A stretch of DNA of 64,000 nucleotides from Terriglobia bacterium (GCA_036496425.1 DASXLG010000020.1:1-64000), one strand, 5' to 3'; shown: positions 52,088-62,533, counted from the first letter of the stretch. Numbers and translations are program-made. Notes: generated by a model not told the origin, from the letters alone.

Positions 52088-52167
52088 GGAAAACGTATTG
52101 GAGATTCCCCGCGATGTCTCCTCTTGTGCCCCGCGCGCTTTCTGAATTATTCTTCAGGGTTCTGTGT

Positions 52168-53046
52168 ATGGAAACAAAAAGCACCAGTGTGCCGATTCCC
52201 GATTCCGACGAACTGATCGAGGTTAAAAAGCCCACTTCACTACTGATCGCTCAATTCTTCTTATTCCCGCTCATCATCATCGCGATTTGCATCGGAATTT
52301 TTCTTCTTTTCGGCTATCTCACGTATCAGCAGGAAACGGCGCAGGAATATCTCAGTGACGTCCGGACCGGTTCGACGCTGCGATGGCAGTCGGCTTATGA
52401 ACTGTCGAACGTCATTTCCACTCAGAAAGACAAGCTTCGAAATACCGATTTTGTCAACGATCTGATCAAGGTCTACAAAGCACACGACGACGATCCTCGC
52501 GTTCACCGCTACTTGGCATTGACCATGGGCCATCTGGGCGATCCCCGGGCGGTTCCTGCTCTGATAGAAGGACTCAATGACGCGGACACCGACAATCAGA
52601 TGAACACACTGCTGGCTCTCGGTTTGATCGGCGACAAGTCGGCAACGCCGGCGGTGGTTCAACGGCTGGCGAGCAATGATCCCGCGATCCGGAAGATGGC
52701 GGCGTTTGTTCTGACGGCGCTGAAGGATCCGGCAGCGGCAGGTAATCTGAAGGTGGCGCTCAACGATACGAACGACGAAGTGCGGTGGTATGCGGCGATC
52801 GCGCTGGCTCAGGTCAACGACGCGTCGGGAACCGATGTCTTGATGAAGCTGATCGACCATGGCTATGTAGACAAGCTGGACGGCTACACGCCGGACCAGC
52901 GAAGCCAATTATTAATTAATGCCGTTAAATGTCTGGGGATACTGAAATTTGAGCCTGCAAAGGATAGAATACTGGCGCTTAGCCAGAGCGATCCTGACCT
53001 GGCTGTAAGGAACGCTTCATTGGAAGCGCTGAAACAATTTTCGTAA
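52168..53046 (+). CDS. Membrane-anchored HEAT-repeat protein
   Basis: A 292-residue protein starting at the ATG at 52168 (AGGG eight bases upstream). One transmembrane helix at about 30-54 (QFFLFPLIIIAICIGIFLLFGYL) precedes about five HEAT/PBS-lyase-like helical repeats (DPRVHRYLALTMGHLGDPRAVPALIEGL; DNQMNTLLALGLIGDKSATPAVVQRL; DEVRWYAAIALAQVND). It sits 23 bases upstream of the Rieske gene, on the same strand. This is inferred to be an assembly or scaffold factor of the cytochrome complex; the repeats themselves are generic protein-binding units. Confidence 0.8.
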   Translation: METKSTSVPIPDSDELIEVKKPTSLLIAQFFLFPLIIIAICIGIFLLFGYLTYQQETAQEYLSDVRTGSTLRWQSAYELSNVISTQKDKLRNTDFVNDLIKVYKAHDDDPRVHRYLALTMGHLGDPRAVPALIEGLNDADTDNQMNTLLALGLIGDKSATPAVVQRLASNDPAIRKMAAFVLTALKDPAAAGNLKVALNDTNDEVRWYAAIALAQVNDASGTDVLMKLIDHGYVDKLDGYTPDQRSQLLINAVKCLGILKFEPAKDRILALSQSDPDLAVRNASLEALKQFS

Positions 53047-53069
53047 TTATTAACTAACGGGAGGCTCCA

Positions 53070-53663
53070 ATGAGTAAAGAAGACTCACCCGCTCCCTCGA
53101 AGCCGGCGCCAAAACCGGCACCAACCGTTAAGCCGGCAGGACCCGCAGCTAAAGCTTCGATGCCGCGCCGATCCTTCCTTTCCTGGATGACGTTGGCGTG
53201 GACCGCGTTCACCGCGTCGATGCTCGCTGCAGCTACTGCAACCGGCCGCTTCATGTTTCCGAACGTACTCTTCGAACCACCTCCAACCTTCAAAGCCGGC
53301 TTCCCTAATGAATATCAGGTCGGACAGGTCGACGAGCGCTTCAAGCAGAAATTCGCCGTCTGGCTCGTTCGCACCGCGTACGACAAGTGGGCGAATTCCA
53401 GCGGTATTTACGCGCTTTCGACGGTCTGTACGCACCTGGGCTGCACGCCGAACTGGCTGCAGGCCGAACAGAAATTCAAATGCCCCTGCCACGGCAGCGG
53501 TTACTACATCACTGGCGTGAACTTCGAAGGCCCGACGCCCCGGCCTCTGGAGCGGTACGCCATCAGTCTCGCTGACGATGGGCAGATTCTTGTGGATAAG
53601 AGCAGGAAGTTCCAGGAAGAAAAAGGCGAATGGATCAATCCCGCTGCGTTTTTAAAACTCTAA
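53070..53663 (+). CDS. Rieske iron-sulfur protein of a bc/b6f-type complex
   Basis: A 197-residue protein. A Pro/Ala/Lys-rich cytosolic N-terminus is followed by PRRSFLSWM and a hydrophobic anchor (about 38-56), as in Tat-exported Rieske proteins. The cluster ligands are Cys120, His122, Cys138 and His141 in CTHLGC and CPCHGS, with Cys125/Cys140 able to form the usual disulfide. It takes an electron from quinol and passes it to the c-type cytochrome. GGGAGG upstream gives a strong start. Four bases separate it from the cytochrome b gene. Confidence 0.95.
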
Positions 53664-53667
53664 TAAT

Positions 53668-54492
53668 ATGGCCAACCTAACTGATCGACTGAAAGAGTTC
53701 TTCAAGGCTCTCTCGCCGGACAAGATCGGCGAGTACATCCAGGACAGCCAGATTTATCGATCCGTTTTCCGCGTCGGCGTTCCCGATTCGGACCGGAAAC
53801 GCATGCTGGTCATGCTCGGCAGCGTGTTTCTTCATCTGCATCCTGTGAAGGTCCGGAAATCCGGCATTCGCATGCGCTACACCTGGTGCATGGGCGGAAT
53901 CACATTCTTCCTCTTTCTGGTGCTGACGTTCACGGGCCTGCTGCTGATGTTCTATTACCGGCCGACGCTGGAATATGCCTACGTCGACATTCGCGATCTG
54001 CGCGAACAGGTGCCGCTGGGCATCATGCGCGAAATACATCGCTGGGGCGCGCACGCGATGGTCATCGCGGTGTGGCTGCATATGTATCGCGTGTTCATGA
54101 CCGGCTCCTATAAACCGCCTCGAGAGTTCAACTGGAACGTCGGCGTCATTCTTCTCGTGCTGACGCTGCTCCTGAGCTTCACGGGTTATCTGCTGCCCTG
54201 GGACCAGCTGGCAATCTGGGCTATCACCGTAGGCAGTAATATGGCGAGGGCCACACCTTTCGCGGGAAATGAGGGACCGGGGGCCGCCCTGCTCAAGCTC
54301 GGCGATATACCTCTGATCAACAATCAGAGCGACGCGCGGTTCGCGCTGCTCGGCGGAAGGTTTGTCGGAGAAAGCGCCCTGCTCCGGTTCTACGTGCTCC
54401 ACTGCGTCGGATTGCCCCTGGTGGCGGGTTTCCTGATGGCGATCCACTTCTGGCGTATCCGTCGCGACGGCGGCATATCGGGTCCACTGTAG
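53668..54492 (+). CDS. Cytochrome b, N-terminal subunit (b6-type)
   Basis: A 274-residue membrane protein with four core helices. The haem ligands are His124-x13-His138 and His245-x14-His260. The x14 spacing of the second pair is typical of cytochrome b6 rather than mitochondrial-type cytochrome b (x13). [18 protein letters not shown] is the quinol-site helix region. The sequence ends after helix four, so the C-terminal half is a separate gene, as in b6f complexes. The N-terminal 60 residues are an unusual soluble extension with a Lys/Arg patch. Confidence 0.93.
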
Positions 54493-54547
54493 ACAGGAGG
54501 GGGAAACTGGGGGCATCACCAATTTCCCCGCTTCCAAAGAGGAATAC

Positions 54548-55627
54548 ATGTTCATAAAAGAAGTCATCAATGCATTCGCTGCGCCGTACTACCTCATTAC
54601 CGCAGCTGCGATCCTGCTGCTGCTTTCACTCAAGTATCCGGCAAAGTTTTACAGCAACAGAGTTGCGAAGATTCTCTTTCCGGCCATGTTCCTTTTCCTG
54701 ATCTTGAGCGCGATTCTCGATGAGAACTTCCGGAAGGTCGTGACCAAGCCGGACAATGTGCCGATCGTCGGCATGCTTTTCCTCGTGCCGTTCTTCACGT
54801 GGTTCTCAATGCGCGAGGCCGTTCGCAACGATAAGCGCATCGAAGAGGGCAAACCTCTCATCGAACAGGAAGAGACGGCGGAAAAGGTTCTGACGTGGCC
54901 CGACCTGGTTTATACCGAACTCATCTGCATGGTCATCCTGACCGTAGTCCTCATCGGGTGGTCCATGTCGTTGCAGGCCCCTCTCGAGGCGCCGGCAAAT
55001 CCATCCAGTTCGCCAAATCCGTCGAAAGCGCCCTGGTACTTCCTTGGCCTCCAGGAAATGCTTGTCTATTTCGACCCCTGGCTTGCGGGCGTGGTGTTTC
55101 CCGGCCTCATCATCGTCGGGCTGATGGCGATTCCATATATCGACACGAATCCGAAAGGCAACGGCTATTACACGCTGAAGGAGCGCCGCTGGGAAATCAC
55201 GACGTTTCTCTTTGGATTTCTGATTCTATGGATACTGCTCGTCATCCTCGGGACGTTTTTGAGAGGTCCAAACTGGAATTTCTTCGGGCCATATGAGTTC
55301 TGGGATATACACAAACTCGAAGCCCTGGTGAATGTGAACCTGTCGGAGTATATCTGGGTGAAAGGCCTGGGTACGGGCCTGCCGAAAAACCCGCTCATTC
55401 GCGAGATGTTCGGATTCATCATCGTACTCGGATATTTCCTGTTGATTCCGCCGCTGCTTGCCAGGAAGTGGTTCAAGGGTTTCTATCAGACGCTGGGACC
55501 GATCCGGTTTCACGTGATGACATTTCTTCTCCTGGCGATGGCGTCGCTTCCGATCAAGATGGTGCTGCGGTGGCTGTTTAATTTGAAGTACATCATCGGA
55601 ATTCCTGAATACTTCTTCAATATTTAG
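54548..55627 (+). CDS. Cytochrome b, C-terminal subunit (subunit IV-like, extended)
   Basis: A 359-residue protein. The conserved block NPSKAPWYFLGLQEMLVYFDPW (about 158-179) corresponds to the subunit IV ef-loop/PEWY region, here APWY, and is followed by helices E-G. About 130 extra residues precede it with additional hydrophobic helices (YYLITAAAILLLLSL; ILFPAMFLFLILSAIL; GMLFLVPFFTWF), so the protein is about twice the size of chloroplast subunit IV. It closes the quinol-oxidising site on the b6-like subunit. Confidence 0.9.
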   Translation: MFIKEVINAFAAPYYLITAAAILLLLSLKYPAKFYSNRVAKILFPAMFLFLILSAILDENFRKVVTKPDNVPIVGMLFLVPFFTWFSMREAVRNDKRIEEGKPLIEQEETAEKVLTWPDLVYTELICMVILTVVLIGWSMSLQAPLEAPANPSSSPNPSKAPWYFLGLQEMLVYFDPWLAGVVFPGLIIVGLMAIPYIDTNPKGNGYYTLKERRWEITTFLFGFLILWILLVILGTFLRGPNWNFFGPYEFWDIHKLEALVNVNLSEYIWVKGLGTGLPKNPLIREMFGFIIVLGYFLLIPPLLARKWFKGFYQTLGPIRFHVMTFLLLAMASLPIKMVLRWLFNLKYIIGIPEYFFNI

Positions 55628-55638
55628 CGGAGACATAA

Positions 55639-58626
55639 GTGAGCAGCGAAACTCCCAACGAGGGCGGACACAAAAAGCCGCCCATACCTACGCCCGCGAA
55701 AAAAATTCCGGCTTTGAACATCGAAAAGCGCGGCGACCGTCTGTATGGAGGGGATTCCCTTCATAAGTGGTTTGCGATCTCGAGCATTCTGCTTTTCGTC
55801 ATCACCATCTTCATGGTGCTCGTGGACTATTCGCGCGAATGGAAGAAATACCAGCGAGAGTTTGTTCATCTGCAGGTCCAGCGTACGCAGAAAGACGAGC
55901 AGCAGTTCCTGCAGGGTCTGGACCGGACGAAGCTGGGGCAACTCGATCAGCAGTTGAAGCAGACGCAGGCCTCCGAGCAGCAGAATGAGGCACAGATCGA
56001 CAAACTTCAAAAGCAGATCAACGACCTCAACGCGAAACAGTATGGGATCGATGAGAATTACCGTTTCGCGAAAGCGGAGTACGACAGCATCAAGTACGAC
56101 TACGAAGATGGAGTCGCCCATAACGCATCCAATGCGCAAAAGCTCGGCGACAAGCTGGCAACGCAACGGAAGAAGATGGATGACTACAAAGCCGCGTTGG
56201 ACCAGACCACTCTCGACTTGCGCGGCGCGACTGACGATCTGAACAAGTACATAGGCAAGCGGGCTGACCTGCAGAAGGCCCGGGAACAGATGACGGCGGA
56301 TTACACGCGGTTGAACGGGCGGCTGAATACGCTGAATCCCGGAGCTGTCATCGTGTCGTTCCGCAATGCGCCGGTGTTCGATTTCATGAATCCTTCGGAG
56401 CGGATCCAACAGATCATTCTGAGCAATCTTTATAACGATCAGCCTTTCAAGGCGATCCCGCGCGTCGACCGTTGCACCACGTGCCATCTGGGCATCGACA
56501 ACAAAGCCTTTGCGGACGCGCCGCAGCCGTTCAAGACGCATCCGAATCTCGACATGTACATCAGCTCGGGTTCGCCCCATCCGATGGAAAACTTCGGCTG
56601 CACCAGCTGCCACGCCGGACTCGATCGTGCTACCAGCTTCCAGAACGCGGCGCACATGCCGCGCAGCGAGGAACAGCGAGTAGCGTGGGAAAAGAAATAC
56701 AACTGGCGTGTCGACCCCGATATCGAAACGCCGATGCTGCCGATGAACAACATCGAAGCCGGCTGTTACAAATGCCACAGCGCCAGCACGGAAGTCCCGA
56801 AAGCCGCGGCCCTCAACTCCGGCCGTGACCTGATCCGGATCTACGGATGCTTCGGATGCCATAAGCTCCCCGGCTACGAGGGTGTTCGCAAAATCGGGCC
56901 GGATCTCTCGACCGTCTCCGGCAAACTGACGAAGGACTGGGTTCGCAAATGGCTCGCAAATCCAAAGGAATTCAAATCGCAGGCCCGGATGCCGCAGTTC
57001 TGGGGAAACGACAACAACAGCGGCAAAACGAATGGAGTCGATTGGGACAAACGGAATGCAGCGGAGATGAACGCGATTACGGAGTATCTCTTCGCAAATT
57101 CCAAGCCCAAGGAGCTGCCTGCGGGCAAGACAAACGGGAACGCGGCGGCTGGAAAGCAGATCGTTGAAACGGTCGGATGCTTCGGCTGCCACGCGATCGG
57201 CGCAATCCAGGAAGTGGCCAATCAGAGCCAGATCCGGCGGCGCCACGGCTACAACCTGGAAAACGAAGGCAGCAAGGTCAGCCAGTCGTGGCTTTACAAC
57301 TGGGTAAAAGATCCGGCGCAGGTCTGGCCGGAAACCAAGATGCCCAGCCTGCGGCTGAGCGATGAGGAAGCGGCCGATGTCGCCGCTTACCTGACCTCGC
57401 TGAAGACCCCGGATTGGGAACAGAAACCTCTTCCTCAAGTCGACCCGGCGGCTCTCGACGACGTCGCACTCGAGTTGTTGCGGACCAATTCGACCGATAT
57501 CGAAGCGCGCGCGAAGTTGAAGGACATGACTCTGGATCAGAAGAACCTCTATGCCGGGCAAGGCCTCATCAGCCGGTATGGATGTTTCGGATGCCATAAC
57601 ATTCCCAAATTCGAAAACGCGCAGCCCATCGGCACCGAGCTGACCGAAGCCGGCAGCAAGATCACCGAGAGACTCGACTTCGGGTTCGTTCCGATCGATG
57701 AGTCCCGCAACGCCTGGTATGAGGAAAAACTCAAAGATCCGCGTATCTATGACTGCGATGTCGTGAAAAAGGACGGCGATAAGTTCGACTGCGATAGAGT
57801 GAGAGTCAAACGGCCGGAAGAATTGCTGAAGATGCCGAACTTCCACTTCAGTGATAAAGACGCAGAGTCGATCACCGGGGTGCTCGTCAGCCTGGTGAAA
57901 GATCCCGTCCCGCTGGAAATGAAGGATCGCACCGCGCAGGCGATCATAGATGGACGGCAGCTCATCTCGGAAAAAAACTGCAGAGGCTGCCACCTGATCG
58001 AAGGCGTAGGCGGCGATATCCGGCCGACGAAAAAAGAGCAGGCGCAGTGGCCGCCGAACTTGAACACCGAAGGATTCAAGACGCAGCCGTCGTGGCTGCA
58101 TCCGTTCTTGAAGGATCCGGGCTCGGTCAAATTGCGGCCATGGCTCGAGGCCCGCATGCCGACGTTCCACTTCACAGATGAACAGGCGGCGACGATCGAG
58201 AAGTATTTCTCCGCGCTGGATAAGGTCGAATATCCGTATGTCAATACGGAGATCGAAACGACTCCGGACCGGTTGAAAATTGGCGCCGAACTGTTCCAGA
58301 AGCTCTCGTGCCAAAGCTGTCATCCGACGAGCAACGTGATCCCGCCGGGGAAGACTGCGGCGGACCTGGCTCCTAATCTGCAGCTCGCGCACCAGCGGCT
58401 CCGGCCGGATTGGGTGCTTCAATGGGTGGCCGACCCGCAGAAGATATTCCCCGGAACCAGAATGCCGGCGTTCTTCACACCGAACGACAAGGGGATACCG
58501 GTCAGTCCATTCCCGGACATTCTCGGTGGAGATGTGAAGGCGCAGATACAGGCCATTCGCGACCACCTGTTCGTTACGGTTGGTGGCGCCAAGGCCAACT
58601 TCAGCAGCGGAAGCGTCGCAAAGTAA
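55639..58626 (+). CDS. Membrane-anchored coiled-coil octahaem cytochrome c
   Basis: A 995-residue protein. The GTG start has GGAGA upstream. Residues about 44-62 are a single transmembrane helix, and about 66-240 a long coiled coil (Gln/Lys/Asp/Leu-rich). Eight CxxCH haem sites follow at Cys279, 321, 376, 404, 514, 649, 781 and 891. Several are followed by a KMP or RMP axial-Met motif (KMPSL, LKMPNFHF, RMPTFHF, RMPAFF), so the C-terminal part is a string of class I cytochrome c modules, and the N-terminal ones look His/His or His/Met. It is 11 bases after the cytochrome b C-terminal gene and most likely replaces cytochrome c1/f. Confidence 0.9.
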   Translation: MSSETPNEGGHKKPPIPTPAKKIPALNIEKRGDRLYGGDSLHKWFAISSILLFVITIFMVLVDYSREWKKYQREFVHLQVQRTQKDEQQFLQGLDRTKLGQLDQQLKQTQASEQQNEAQIDKLQKQINDLNAKQYGIDENYRFAKAEYDSIKYDYEDGVAHNASNAQKLGDKLATQRKKMDDYKAALDQTTLDLRGATDDLNKYIGKRADLQKAREQMTADYTRLNGRLNTLNPGAVIVSFRNAPVFDFMNPSERIQQIILSNLYNDQPFKAIPRVDRCTTCHLGIDNKAFADAPQPFKTHPNLDMYISSGSPHPMENFGCTSCHAGLDRATSFQNAAHMPRSEEQRVAWEKKYNWRVDPDIETPMLPMNNIEAGCYKCHSASTEVPKAAALNSGRDLIRIYGCFGCHKLPGYEGVRKIGPDLSTVSGKLTKDWVRKWLANPKEFKSQARMPQFWGNDNNSGKTNGVDWDKRNAAEMNAITEYLFANSKPKELPAGKTNGNAAAGKQIVETVGCFGCHAIGAIQEVANQSQIRRRHGYNLENEGSKVSQSWLYNWVKDPAQVWPETKMPSLRLSDEEAADVAAYLTSLKTPDWEQKPLPQVDPAALDDVALELLRTNSTDIEARAKLKDMTLDQKNLYAGQGLISRYGCFGCHNIPKFENAQPIGTELTEAGSKITERLDFGFVPIDESRNAWYEEKLKDPRIYDCDVVKKDGDKFDCDRVRVKRPEELLKMPNFHFSDKDAESITGVLVSLVKDPVPLEMKDRTAQAIIDGRQLISEKNCRGCHLIEGVGGDIRPTKKEQAQWPPNLNTEGFKTQPSWLHPFLKDPGSVKLRPWLEARMPTFHFTDEQAATIEKYFSALDKVEYPYVNTEIETTPDRLKIGAELFQKLSCQSCHPTSNVIPPGKTAADLAPNLQLAHQRLRPDWVLQWVADPQKIFPGTRMPAFFTPNDKGIPVSPFPDILGGDVKAQIQAIRDHLFVTVGGAKANFSSGSVAK

Positions 58627-58635
58627 TAATTAGGC

Positions 58636-58718
58636 ACAAAAGGCACAAAGGGGGGCGCAGGGGAAATCAGGGGTCGCCGACCCCTGATTTCCCCTGCGCC
58701 CCCCTTTGTGCCTTTTGT
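58636..58718. repeat. Perfect 41-bp-arm palindrome (family E)
   Basis: Arms 58636-58676 and 58678-58718 are fully complementary over 41 bases with one central base. The outer part is AGGCACAAA-type, shared in style with the repeat at 59615-59677, and the inner part is GC-rich. It begins seven bases after the octahaem cytochrome stop. There is no T-tract; it could still end or stabilise the transcript. Confidence 0.95.
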
Positions 58719-58802
58719 AGCTAATAAAATCCAACAAGATGCGATATATTTCGGGGTTGGGTCTTAATACTGATTACCAACCTAAAATTGGAGAATCCTA
58801 AA

Positions 58803-59603
58803 ATGCAGAAACGAACTCTCTTCCTTTACGCGGCGTTCCTCGTCGCCGCGCTGGTTGCGGGCTGCGGCGGTGGTGGGAATAATGGTGACATTCCGCCGGC
58901 TGCAACAGGTGGGGGCAATTCCGGTGGCGGCGCCTCATTCGATATGTCCAAGGCTACGGCCACAGTGAGCGGAAAGATCGCCTTCATGGGTACGCCTCCT
59001 CCGAACGACAAAATTCAGATGTCGTCCGATCCCTATTGCCAGATGCACGCCGCCGATTATCCGACCGCCGAAACGGTGAAAGTCAGCGATGGAGGCCTGG
59101 AGAACGTCATCGTTTACATCAGCATGGGCGCGCCGGCCGGAGCAAGCTATGCCACGCCTGCGGCAAGCGAGATCGTGCAGCAGAATTGCCACTACATTCC
59201 GCACGTCTTCACGATGATGACCGGTCAGCCTTTGAACGTGAAGAACGCGGACATGACGCTGCATAACATTCACGTCTGGGCCGAAAAGAATCCGCAATTC
59301 AACGTCGGCCAGCCTGTTAAAGACATGGTGAGTGCGACCAAGTTCGCCACGCCTGAGGTTCCGATTCCGATCCGTTGCGACGTTCACAAGTGGATGGGCG
59401 CTTTCGTGGGCGTGTTCGATAATCCATTCAACACGGTTTCCAAATCCGGCGGCAGTTTCGAGCTGAAACTTCCTCCGGGAACCTACGAAGTCACGGCCTG
59501 GCACGAAAAGTACGGCAAGAAGACCATGATGGTGACGGTCGCCGACAACGACAAGAAAGAAGTTAATTTCTCCTACAGCCCCGACGATAAAGCGGCGGAC
59601 TAA
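58803..59603 (+). CDS. Cupredoxin-like lipoprotein
   Basis: A 266-residue exported protein starting at the ATG at 58803 (GGAG nine bases upstream). The lipobox LVAGC gives lipid-modified Cys21, followed by a Gly-rich linker. The domain from about 52 on carries type 1 copper-like residues: His154 in LHNIHVW, then Cys192, His195 and Met198 in CDVHKWM. This Cys-x2-His-x2-Met spacing fits a blue-copper site. The end (GGSFELKLPPGTYEVTAWHEKYG) is a carboxypeptidase-regulatory-like strand set. From its place between cytochrome and oxidase-assembly genes it may carry electrons; a structural role is also possible. Confidence 0.75.
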   Translation: MQKRTLFLYAAFLVAALVAGCGGGGNNGDIPPAATGGGNSGGGASFDMSKATATVSGKIAFMGTPPPNDKIQMSSDPYCQMHAADYPTAETVKVSDGGLENVIVYISMGAPAGASYATPAASEIVQQNCHYIPHVFTMMTGQPLNVKNADMTLHNIHVWAEKNPQFNVGQPVKDMVSATKFATPEVPIPIRCDVHKWMGAFVGVFDNPFNTVSKSGGSFELKLPPGTYEVTAWHEKYGKKTMMVTVADNDKKEVNFSYSPDDKAAD

Positions 59604-59614
59604 GGACTCTTAAG

Positions 59615-59677
59615 AAGGAACCACAAGAGGCACAGAAAGCGCAAACACCTTGCGCCTTCTGCTTCTTGTGGTTCCTT
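59615..59677. repeat. Imperfect inverted repeat, AACCACAAGAGGC type (family F)
   Basis: Two arms of about 28-30 bases (from 59615 and ending 59677) with a few mismatches and a short centre. Related words (CCACAAGAGGCACA; CCTCTTGTGCC) also occur as a looser inverted pair at about 52070-52129 upstream of the HEAT gene. It lies between the cupredoxin stop and the ctaA start. Confidence 0.75.
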
Positions 59678-59689
59678 CCTTTCGAAGTC

Positions 59690-60676
59690 ATGCAAGACGA
59701 AAACGTTTCCCTCCACCGCTTCGCTCTATTCACGGCCTGCTGCACGGCATTCCTCATCTTTGTCGGAGGGCTTGTCACCAGCACGCAATCAGGCCTGAGT
59801 GTTCCGGACTGGCCGACGAGCTACGGCTGGAACATGTTTACCTTCCCGTTCTCCAAATGGGTCGGCGGAATATTCTATGAACACAGTCACAGGCTGGTTG
59901 CTTCGACCGTAGGTTTCTTCACAGTTATTCTGACCGTCTGGACGTGGCTCAAAGAAAAGCGCGCGTGGGTCCGGTGGCTGAGCGCTGCCGCTCTGGGCGC
60001 CGTCGTTCTGCAAGGCGTGTTCGGCGGCCTCACGGTCATCTTTCTCTTACCGGCGTGGATTTCGACGGTCCATGCCTGCCTGGCGCAGACATTCTTTTGT
60101 CTGGTGATTGCAATTGCGGTCGTGACATCACCGCAGTGGAAACGCGGACTTCCACAGGTCAAGCCGCATGCGGAGAGCATCCCGCTGCGGACTTTGTGCG
60201 CCATGACCACCGCCGCCGTATACGTTCAGTTGATCATGGGCGCGCTGATGCGTCACACGAACGCCGGGCTGGCGATTCCGGATTTTCCGCTCGCGCTCGG
60301 GCACCTGATCCCGCCATTCAGTTCGGGAAAAATCATTATTCATTTTGCCCATCGCGTGGGAGCGGTTATCGTGACCGCCATGATGGTCTGGACCTTCACC
60401 AGAATTGCGCGATTGTACTCGGACCATTCGCTCCTGTTCCGGCCGGCATTGACGATGCTCGTTCTGGTCGCGGTTCAACTCACGCTAGGCGCCATCACGA
60501 TCTGGACGGCTAAAGCCGTGGTACCGACCACCGCGCATGTCCTCACGGGAGCGTTGATCCTGGGGACATCATTTCTGTTGACGCTGCGGGCGTATGCTAT
60601 GAGTGGAGCGCATGCAGACGCAATAGCGCGCAGCAAGGATCAGATGCTCATCGACCGGGTGCCGGCATGGAAGTAA
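59690..60676 (+). CDS. ctaA: Haem A synthase (CtaA/Cox15)
   Basis: A 328-residue, eight-helix membrane enzyme starting at the ATG at 59690. Conserved features are GGLVTSTQSGLSVPDWPTSYG, the catalytic region FYEHSHRLVAS, and the other haem-binding His in STVHACLAQ, IHFAHRVGAVIV and TAHVLTGAL. It oxidises the C8 methyl of haem O to haem A for cytochrome c oxidase. It overlaps ctaB by ten bases. The ribosome binding site is weak, which may tie translation to the repeat upstream. Confidence 0.94.
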   Translation: MQDENVSLHRFALFTACCTAFLIFVGGLVTSTQSGLSVPDWPTSYGWNMFTFPFSKWVGGIFYEHSHRLVASTVGFFTVILTVWTWLKEKRAWVRWLSAAALGAVVLQGVFGGLTVIFLLPAWISTVHACLAQTFFCLVIAIAVVTSPQWKRGLPQVKPHAESIPLRTLCAMTTAAVYVQLIMGALMRHTNAGLAIPDFPLALGHLIPPFSSGKIIIHFAHRVGAVIVTAMMVWTFTRIARLYSDHSLLFRPALTMLVLVAVQLTLGAITIWTAKAVVPTTAHVLTGALILGTSFLLTLRAYAMSGAHADAIARSKDQMLIDRVPAWK

Positions 60677-61542
60677 CACCGCTGGAACTGGCGCGCCGGC
60701 GGGTTCGCGCCGGCGACCTGATAGAATTGACCAAACCCCGCATTACGTTTCTCGTGTTGATTACCACGCTGGTGGGGTTTTACATGGGATCGCGGGACGG
60801 CATGAATTTCCTGCTGCTGTTTCACACAATTCTGGGAACCGGGCTGGTGGCCAGCGGAGCAAGCGCGCTCAACCAATATTTCGAACGTGACCTCGACGCG
60901 CGGATGGTGCGCACACGCAACCGGCCTCTGCCGGACGGCAGGCTTGTCCCGAATGAAGCGCTCATTTTCTCGGCGCTCATTTCCGCCGCCGGCGTCCTCT
61001 ATCTGATGTTGTTTGTGAATCTCCTGACAGGCCTGATCGGTGCGGCCACCCTGGGCGGTTACGTTCTCGTTTACACTCCGCTGAAAACACGCACAGTGTT
61101 ATGCACATTGATCGGGGCGTTTCCGGGCGCTGCGCCGCCGGTTATGGGATGGACGGCGGCGCGGGGCGAAGTGGATGCGATCGCTTTATCGTTGTTTGCA
61201 ATTCTCTTTCTCTGGCAGATGCCGCACTTTTTTGCGATCGCCTGGATCTTTACGGAAGATTACATGCGCGCCGGCTTCACCATGCACGGCAGCGGCGTCC
61301 GCACCGGCAGGCAGATCGTCCTCTATTGCTGCGCGTTGATTCCGATCAGCGTACTGCCGACGTTCTTCGGATTGACGGGAATGGCATACCTTCTCGGAGC
61401 AATTCTGTTCGGCTTCATTTATCTGGGCTATGGCTTCGCTGTCGCGCTCTTTCGTTCGAACACACATGCCCATCGATTGCTCCGGGTTTCGGTGGTCTAT
61501 TTGCCCGCATTATTACTGCTTATGATGCTTGATAAGATATAG
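60667..61542 (+). CDS. ctaB: Protohaem IX farnesyltransferase (haem O synthase)
   Basis: A 291-residue UbiA-family prenyltransferase: LTKPRITFLVLITTLVGF, the Mg-prenyl-PP site NQYFERDLDARMVRTRNRPLP, the second site YTPLKTRTVLCTLIGAFPGAAPPVMGW and LWQMPHFFAIAW. It makes haem O from haem B, the substrate for CtaA. Coupled to ctaA by overlap. Confidence 0.96.
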   Translation: MEVTPLELARRRVRAGDLIELTKPRITFLVLITTLVGFYMGSRDGMNFLLLFHTILGTGLVASGASALNQYFERDLDARMVRTRNRPLPDGRLVPNEALIFSALISAAGVLYLMLFVNLLTGLIGAATLGGYVLVYTPLKTRTVLCTLIGAFPGAAPPVMGWTAARGEVDAIALSLFAILFLWQMPHFFAIAWIFTEDYMRAGFTMHGSGVRTGRQIVLYCCALIPISVLPTFFGLTGMAYLLGAILFGFIYLGYGFAVALFRSNTHAHRLLRVSVVYLPALLLLMMLDKI

Positions 61543-61568
61543 GCCCGGGTTTTCGCCAGCATTGCGTT

Positions 61569-62123
61569 ATGAAATTTATTGCCGCATTCTTTTCCCTTCT
61601 TCTGATCGCTTCCTGCAGCCGCACGCCCGATTTGCAAACGTTCTACCCCGTTCCTGATTTCTCTCTGACGGATCAAACCGACAGGACTGTCACCATGCAG
61701 GAACTCAAAGGCAGGGCATGGGTGGCGGACTTTATCTTCACCAACTGCGGCGGCACCTGTCCGGTGATGACGGAGGAGATGCGCAAATTGCAGGCAACGC
61801 TTCCGCCGAACATCCGGCTGGTCTCTTTCACGGTGGATCCGAACCGGGATACAACGAAAGTACTTGCGGCGTATGCTGCCGAACATGGTGCAACACGAGA
61901 TCGCTGGCTGTTTCTGACAGGAGACAAGCAGGCGCTCTACGACATCTGTATCAAGGGATTCAAATTGGCCCTCGAAGACGATGCCGGAACACCGCTGGAG
62001 CCCATCACGCACAGCACGCGATTCGTTCTGGTGGATGACCAGGGACAGATTCGCGGCTATTACAGCGGCACCGAAGACAAGGAAATGAGCCGGCTCGCGG
62101 CAGACGCAAAGAAGCTGTCGTGA
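61569..62123 (+). CDS. Sco1/SenC copper chaperone lipoprotein
   Basis: A 184-residue thioredoxin-fold protein anchored by lipid at Cys16 (LLLIASC). The copper site is Cys60-x3-Cys64 in TNCGGTCPVM plus His in PITHSTRFVLVDDQGQ. It delivers copper to CuA of cytochrome c oxidase. It overlaps the next gene (GTGA). Confidence 0.92.
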   Translation: MKFIAAFFSLLLIASCSRTPDLQTFYPVPDFSLTDQTDRTVTMQELKGRAWVADFIFTNCGGTCPVMTEEMRKLQATLPPNIRLVSFTVDPNRDTTKVLAAYAAEHGATRDRWLFLTGDKQALYDICIKGFKLALEDDAGTPLEPITHSTRFVLVDDQGQIRGYYSGTEDKEMSRLAADAKKLS

Positions 62124-62533
62124 CTCAGATCTCCGATCTCGCCACCGTCAATGCCGCGCTGAACGCCACTGCCGCGGTTCTGATCGGCACGGGTTTCTAC
62201 TTCATCAAGCAGAAGAATATTCGCGCGCACAAAGTGTGCATGGTTGCGGCTGTGGTGGTGTCTTCGCTTTTTCTGACCTCGTATTTGATTTATCACTACC
62301 ACGTCGGATCGGTGAGATTCACGAAACAGGGATGGATCCGGGACGTCTATTTCCCGCTTCTCCTGACGCATACAATTCTCGCCGTCGTGACGCTGCCGAT
62401 GGTTCTGCGGACGGTTTTTCTCGCCGCCAAGGGCCGCTTTTCCAAGCATGTCCGGGTGGCGAAATGGACGTTTCCGATCTGGATGTATGTCTCTGTGACC
62501 GGAGTCGTTGTCTATCTGCTGCTATACCATTAG
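62120..62533 (+). CDS. DUF420 membrane protein
   Basis: A 137-residue protein with four transmembrane helices starting at a GTG that overlaps the Sco stop. DUF420 markers: LNATAAVLIGTGFYFIKQKNIRAHKVCMVAA, SYLIYHYHVG (conserved His), LLTHTILAVVTLPMV, and RVAKWTFPIWMYVSVTGVVVYLLLY. Members are found beside oxidase assembly genes (CtaM/YozB type) and are thought to help haem-copper oxidase assembly. Confidence 0.9.
   Translation: MTQISDLATVNAALNATAAVLIGTGFYFIKQKNIRAHKVCMVAAVVVSSLFLTSYLIYHYHVGSVRFTKQGWIRDVYFPLLLTHTILAVVTLPMVLRTVFLAAKGRFSKHVRVAKWTFPIWMYVSVTGVVVYLLLYH

Follow-up and report, generated by a model that had tools for sequence, protein, structure and literature searches.

Respiratory complex III is taught in three forms, namely bc1, b6f and alternative complex III (ACIII). 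The passages of the Nitrospina gracilis genome report that deal with it describe a further one, a b6-type operon with split cytochrome b whose c subunit is an unusual octahaem protein; Kuenenia and Methylomirabilis oxyfera share it (PMC3578206). From Kuenenia stuttgartiensis, the crystal structure of the Rieske protein Kustd1480 is available (PDB 9rk3; midpoint potential +335 mV), and the Kustd1480-1485 complex was modelled with a Glu-ligated haem cN, with the helices of Kustd1485 wrapping round the complex, and with a new haem b, held by His at the cytochrome b dimer interface, which was proposed to serve NAD(P)H formation (PMC12954380). Here we describe a gene unit of this kind in a 64,000-nucleotide stretch of Terriglobia bacterium DNA (GCA_036496425.1 DASXLG010000020.1:1-64000; the whole stretch is called the window). 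The sequence indicates that the unit likely encodes an electrogenic menaquinol oxidase, a member of the Rieske/cytochrome b superfamily, that feeds an aa3-type oxidase, probably via a cupredoxin.

Results

Comparison of the unit with described complexes

The unit consists of ten tightly packed genes on the + strand (52114-62533) and is longer than the first-pass annotation stated. The order is HEAT, Rieske, cytochrome b6-like, extended subunit IV (SUIV), octahaem cytochrome c, cupredoxin, CtaA, CtaB, Sco and DUF420, with spacings of 4-62 bp or overlaps except for 176 bp 5' of the cupredoxin gene. Nearly every part was named by Pfam and NCBIfam, including Pfam matches for Rieske, Cytochrome_B, Cytochrom_B_C, Cytochrom_C and HEAT, while the cupredoxin was assigned by fold and ligands. 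When the open frames and residues were rechecked, the gene places, the haem ligand spacing (second pair His-x14-His) and the eight CxxCH sites given by the first-pass annotation were all correct.

The best PDB match of the window Rieske protein was Kustd1480 (9rk3, 8e-43; identity in Table 1). In common with Kustd1480-1485, the unit has a b6-like cytochrome b, an extended SUIV, a Glu at the haem cN position, conserved His residues as candidate ligands of the proposed dimer haem, and a large multihaem cytochrome c with a transmembrane (TM) anchor and long helices, the last likened to Kustd1485 by description and not by sequence. It differs in lacking an NAD(P) oxidoreductase, in beginning with the HEAT gene, in being followed by cupredoxin and haem A/copper assembly genes, and in a SUIV of about 8 helices by hydropathy versus 5 modelled in Kuenenia. 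The Nitrospina/Kuenenia/Methylomirabilis operon, known from genome papers and compared by description, likewise places a Rieske gene beside a split b6-type cytochrome b with an octahaem protein as the sole c subunit; the passages that describe it do not mention HEAT, the hairpin or an oxidase link (PMC3578206). Because this operon has been reported, the Kuenenia complex has been modelled and the window Rieske protein matches Kustd1480 best, the window unit is of a known kind, with relatives in anammox and nitrite-oxidising bacteria, and the suggestion that it may define a distinct new type is not supported.

More distant systems share fewer features. The b6f complex of plants and cyanobacteria has in common the split cytochrome b, the ligand spacing, the haem cn Cys and a b6-type Rieske protein, whereas the window unit has an octahaem cytochrome c instead of cytochrome f, about 5 more helices in SUIV, and KAPWY in place of PEWY. 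None of the bc1 features (unsplit cytochrome b, second pair H-x13-H, cytochrome c1) was found. In NCBIfam, cytochrome b and SUIV matched best to the models of ExtP/ExtQ/ExtS of the selenite/tellurite reduction operon (NF040969, NF040970, NF040971), and the c subunit matched them weakly, but all window matches were below the curated cut-offs, and the large octahaem subunit lies outside those models. ACIII (ActABCDEF) has the same respiratory-chain job but is built from unrelated families (NrfD and Fe-S proteins), without Rieske or cytochrome b.

Rieske protein, cytochrome b and the quinone sites

The Rieske protein has the cluster motifs CTHLGC (120) and CPCHGSGY (138) and a twin-arginine PRRSFL close to the N-terminus. 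The haem ligands of cytochrome b are H124/H138 (H-x13-H) and H245/H260 (H-x14-H); a Rieske protein and a four-helix cytochrome b with two haem-ligating His pairs place the unit in the Rieske/cytochrome b superfamily. Cytochrome b was assigned to the b6 type because the NCBIfam matches to ExtP (4e-78) and b6 (6e-53) were stronger than that to bc1 (2e-23) and b6 ranked first among PDB matches. Pfam, NCBIfam, PDB and TM predictions thus bore out a split b6-type complex with an oversized SUIV. All four haem b ligands were invariant across relatives, save one X-or-gap row at H260, and Cys74, at the place of the b6 haem cn cysteine, was kept in 79/79 cytochrome b sequences. An extra conserved His, H129, lies five residues past ligand H124 (one X-or-gap row), and an invariant Cys, C246, lies beside ligand H245.

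In SUIV, hydropathy gave about 8 hydrophobic helices versus 3 in b6f. Glu124 was kept in 72/72 sequences, at a site that we take, from its alignment with SUIV of b6f, to be the second haem cn ligand position. The Qo motif was KAPWY (160-164) in all 72 sequences and not the PEWY of b6f; Qo motifs other than PEWY are known in the wider superfamily. As the PEWY glutamate is absent, the Qo proton acceptor must be another group. The stretch PNPxKAPWYFLGLQE was invariant in the window SUIV and all variants.

H56 and H58 of cytochrome b were also invariant (79/79). Both are candidate ligands of a dimer-interface haem, and one should match the His proposed in Kuenenia. Together with Kustd1480 being the nearest solved relative, this match favours a Kuenenia-style bifurcation, in which a cytoplasmic NAD(P) reductase takes the low-potential electron of the cytochrome b dimer and the high-potential one leaves via the octahaem protein. 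We consider this very unlikely, as no gene for an NAD(P) oxidoreductase was found in the window unit (only the unit was searched for one), the tight spacing of the Rieske, cytochrome b, SUIV and octahaem genes in the loci leaves no room for one, and the unit is linked to oxidase genes instead. Since the unit and its relatives lack an NAD(P) module between these genes, the NAD(P)H role of the interface haem, if that haem exists, cannot be general.

Octahaem cytochrome c

The c subunit is neither c1 nor f, as had been noticed on first inspection; an octahaem protein takes its place. Its eight CxxCH sites are at residues 279, 321, 376, 404, 514, 649, 781 and 891, and its single TM helix (44-62) is followed by about 217 residues up to the first haem. 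Across 65 sequences this distance had a median of 220 and a range of 191-262, and the residues themselves were not conserved. An AlphaFold2 model from a 60-sequence alignment (mean predicted local distance difference test score, pLDDT, 86; predicted template modelling score 0.75) gave helices 67-93, 96-115 and 117-160, which form a long arm (67-160) with small breaks, then a turn (161-165) and a return helix (166-232). From this helix order, the coiled coil is predicted to be an antiparallel hairpin of near-constant length. A fold search of the PDB with the whole model found no significant counterpart; the local matches, none of them significant, were to the hairpins of Smc, HlyD and EmrA and to SoxX. 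Recoding of in-frame stops in the octahaem gene of some genomes was rejected, as the five genes fetched had intact frames and eight haems.

The first-pass annotation had proposed a membrane anchor and a coiled coil that lifts the haems as a stalk. The anchor and coiled coil were recovered (TM 44-62, helices 67-232), but a simple stalk is not supported, because AlphaFold2 gives an antiparallel hairpin and not a one-way stalk. A raised haem wire serving distant acceptors, such as extracellular or outer-membrane ones, therefore appears unlikely, even with a TM anchor and about 217 residues ahead of the first haem, weak matches to MtrC-like domains, and a predicted hairpin whose arms differ in length by about 27 residues, which may give some lift. 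The helices of Kustd1485 were modelled as wrapping round the complex (PMC12954380), a compact variant keeps eight haems without the hairpin, no porin is present in the unit, and five putative His/Met domains with an oxidase linkage are unlike a low-potential conduit.

These domains were recognised from the Met residues. Haems 1-3 (279, 321, 376) had no paired downstream Met-Pro, while haems 4-8 (404, 514, 649, 781, 891) were each followed by an invariant Met (M451, M568, M732, M840 and M942, respectively). The pattern suggests three bis-His haems followed by five His/Met class I domains, and, because of the invariant downstream Met of haems 4-8, this three-plus-five plan suggests a high-potential relay.

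HEAT protein, cupredoxin and terminal oxidase

A membrane HEAT gene upstream of the Rieske gene was confirmed (TM 48-66, Pfam HEAT_2). Charges flanking its helix predict that the HEAT repeats lie behind it in the periplasm, and the protein is likely a structural or assembly subunit. The blue-copper-like lipoprotein noted downstream is a genuine cupredoxin by fold, ligands and lipobox (Cys21 in the window copy). Its model (pLDDT 87) matched amicyanin and plastocyanin folds in the PDB, its loop CDVHKWM has amicyanin spacing, and the ligands expected of a cupredoxin (two His, Cys and Met) were found, with H154, H157, C192, H195 and M198 invariant in 37/37 sequences. The C-terminus is carboxypeptidase-regulatory-like. 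A TTG at 58788 is in frame with the ATG at 58803. Both the HEAT protein and the cupredoxin would belong to the complex. Coordinates of all ten genes are given in Table 1; Rfam and tRNA searches of the window returned no matches.

Table 1. Genes of the unit in the window (aa, amino acids).
Feature	Coordinates	Strand	Evidence
Membrane-anchored HEAT-repeat protein, 310 aa, TM 48-66	52114..53046	+	Pfam HEAT_2 1.4e-26, TM prediction
Rieske [2Fe-2S] subunit, 197 aa	53070..53663	+	Pfam Rieske; 55% identity over 116 aa to PDB 9rk3 (Kustd1480)
Cytochrome b6-like subunit, 274 aa	53668..54492	+	Pfam, NCBIfam, PDB cytochrome b6 9.6e-41, conservation
Extended subunit IV (SUIV), 359 aa	54548..55627	+	Pfam Cytochrom_B_C, PDB SUIV, TM, conservation
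Octahaem cytochrome c, 995 aa, GTG start	55639..58626	+	Motifs, TM prediction, AlphaFold2, conservation
Cupredoxin lipoprotein, 266 aa, ATG start	58803..59603	+	Ligands, model pLDDT 87, PDB cupredoxin folds
CtaA/COX15 haem A synthase	59666..60676	+	Pfam COX15-CtaA 4e-38
CtaB haem O synthase	60667..61542	+	TIGR01473 above cut-off
SCO1/SenC, copper chaperone of cytochrome oxidase	61569..62123	+	Pfam SCO1-SenC 1e-27
DUF420 membrane protein	62120..62533	+	Pfam DUF420 1.8e-42

The link to an aa3-type oxidase was seen at several levels. Genes for haem A and CuA biogenesis (CtaA, CtaB and Sco) are inside the window's own unit. A genome scan with the window cytochrome b gave 317 relatives, the best 80 of which were fetched as loci; COX1 was within the fetched flank in 29/80. 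In one of these loci (L067) the order was octahaem, cupredoxin, COX2 (with CuA and no CxxCH), COX1, COX3 and COX4, with a CtaA homologue further on. On contig 22 the host genome has a second COX1, accompanied by COX3 and COX4. In BLAST comparisons this copy was 47% identical to the L067 COX1 versus 35% for the ACIII-linked copy, and by sequence it is nearer to the unit-linked oxidase clade than the ACIII-linked COX1 is.

The same enzyme could instead deliver electrons to a periplasmic reductase of nitrite, nitrous oxide (N2O) or another acceptor. In Caldithrix, Nitrospira and Kuenenia, related Rieske/cytochrome b units have nitrogen-cycle reductases as neighbours, and 51/80 loci were without COX1 in the fetched flank, partly through contig ends. 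The haem A and CuA biogenesis genes within the window unit make such an acceptor improbable, as do the oxidase operons to which the unit is joined in several phyla.

The host genome was also found to have a second, unrelated quinol-to-oxygen route judged from its genes: one set of ACIII-like genes lies beside a caa3 oxidase whose COX2 has a cytochrome c domain. At locus L098, on contig 138 of the host (G000), Sco, a COX2 that carries a cytochrome c domain, and COX1 come after ACIII-like genes. Two VitK2_biosynth genes (MqnA/MqnD family) indicated futalosine-type menaquinone synthesis in the host. A search of the host genome with the window cytochrome b gave one match and no second relative.

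Distribution and architectural variants

The order HEAT-Rieske-b6-SUIV-octahaem recurred across the 80 loci in at least eight phyla by record title: Acidobacteriota, Neomarinimicrobiota, Omnitrophota, Planctomycetota, Bdellovibrionota, Gemmatimonadota, Latescibacterota and FCPU426. In counts that take in some loci of variant architectures, HEAT adjoined the Rieske gene in 69/75 testable loci, the octahaem gene was directly 3' of SUIV in 85/85, and eight CxxCH were present in 79/85 octahaem genes, the exceptions being mostly cut or broken genes. The conservation of gene order is far beyond chance. A gene order both widespread and already characterised would, by the first-pass annotation's own terms, have refuted its reading; the order is widespread, and no characterisation of a purified whole complex of this type was found in the open literature consulted. 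A record labelled Woeseiaceae (Pseudomonadota; L013) has a unit with only six CxxCH, which may reflect a misbinned contig, transfer or a sequencing error.

An octahaem profile search of 247 Acidobacteriota genomes gave near full-length matches in about 40 and partial matches in some 36 more; matches were also found in 48/149 Neomarinimicrobiota genomes and in 13/23 genomes of the class of locus L058. Further operons of the HEAT type were present in that class, but among the loci examined no NAD(P) unit resembling that of Kuenenia could be recognised. In four of its loci (L139-L142) the octahaem protein has long inserts and measures 1350-1580 residues.

Variants were found by fetching weaker matches in Acidobacteriota (L101-L103, L110-L137). 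Type I, the window's plan, has HEAT and Cys74. Type II has a long octahaem protein, Gly at position 74 and no detected HEAT. Type III (e.g., L102) is compact, with the first haem at about residue 76-97, a SUIV of about 235 residues, no hairpin and loss of Cys74, and type IV (L120-L124) has an unsplit cytochrome b and a seven-haem protein. In a cytochrome b tree, built by a quick method with a midpoint root and with long branches among types III and IV, types I to IV each formed one group (Shimodaira-Hasegawa-like approximate likelihood ratio test 98, 99, 94 and 100, respectively), and types I and II were neighbours at 94. Strict co-inheritance of HEAT and the hairpin was rejected, as type II has a comparable pre-haem stretch and no detectable HEAT neighbour. 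Several Acidobacteriota genomes carry more than one of the four types. An intermediate form (L137, 5361-9531) has an unsplit cytochrome b (484 aa), an octahaem protein with its first haem at residue 254, and a cupredoxin gene before the Rieske gene.

Discussion

From the observed gene set, motifs, conservation and neighbourhood we infer an electron path, with its potentials and proton coupling, for a menaquinol oxidase feeding an aa3-type oxidase. Quinol would be oxidised at the Qo site, and one electron would return via haems b and cn into the quinone pool in a Q cycle. The Rieske cluster would hand the other to those haems of the octahaem protein that lie near the membrane, from where it would move along a chain of mostly His/Met, presumably high-potential haems. 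The hairpin arms may clamp the octahaem cytochrome onto the b/Rieske dimer, possibly with HEAT, so that it would not be raised on a mast, and electrons would leave through the lipoprotein cupredoxin to CuA of an aa3-type oxidase without a haem c domain of its own.

Several observations weigh against this account. Only 32/52 testable loci had the cupredoxin within 2.5 kb downstream; other carriers may therefore share its role, or the octahaem protein may hand electrons to the oxidase by docking on it without a carrier. The window unit and the oxidase subunits of the same genome are on different contigs. The His/Met assignment of haems 4-8, and hence their high potential, derives from sequence alone, and the AlphaFold2 hairpin comes from the octahaem chain by itself, without haems or partners. 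Glu124 is also kept in variants without Cys74, so that alone it is no proof of a haem cn ligand; co-variation of the two residues was rejected as such a proof on the same ground. A stronger version appears doubtful, in which one complex III class would have as obligate subunits HEAT, Rieske, b6, the extended SUIV and an octahaem protein clamped by its hairpin, would be fixed in a supercomplex with an aa3 oxidase of its own, would use the eight haems as an internal wire, and would have at its cytochrome b dimer an interface haem b serving inter-monomer electron sharing rather than NAD(P)H formation.

To the known complex the present analysis adds its HEAT partner, its spread across phyla, its link to an oxidase, four variants, and invariant His residues that are candidate interface-haem ligands in operons without an NAD(P)H module. 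No description of the HEAT partner, oxidase link, spread or variants was found in the open literature; subscription papers were outside our reach, so that priority is not certain. The interface haem was proposed for NAD(P)H production in anammox, and its candidate ligands are invariant in dozens of operons without the module; should such a haem exist, its role in general must be a different one. The unit, found here in a soil acidobacterium whose genome has this one cytochrome b match only, points to a further, biochemically uncharacterised class of complex III across at least eight phyla.

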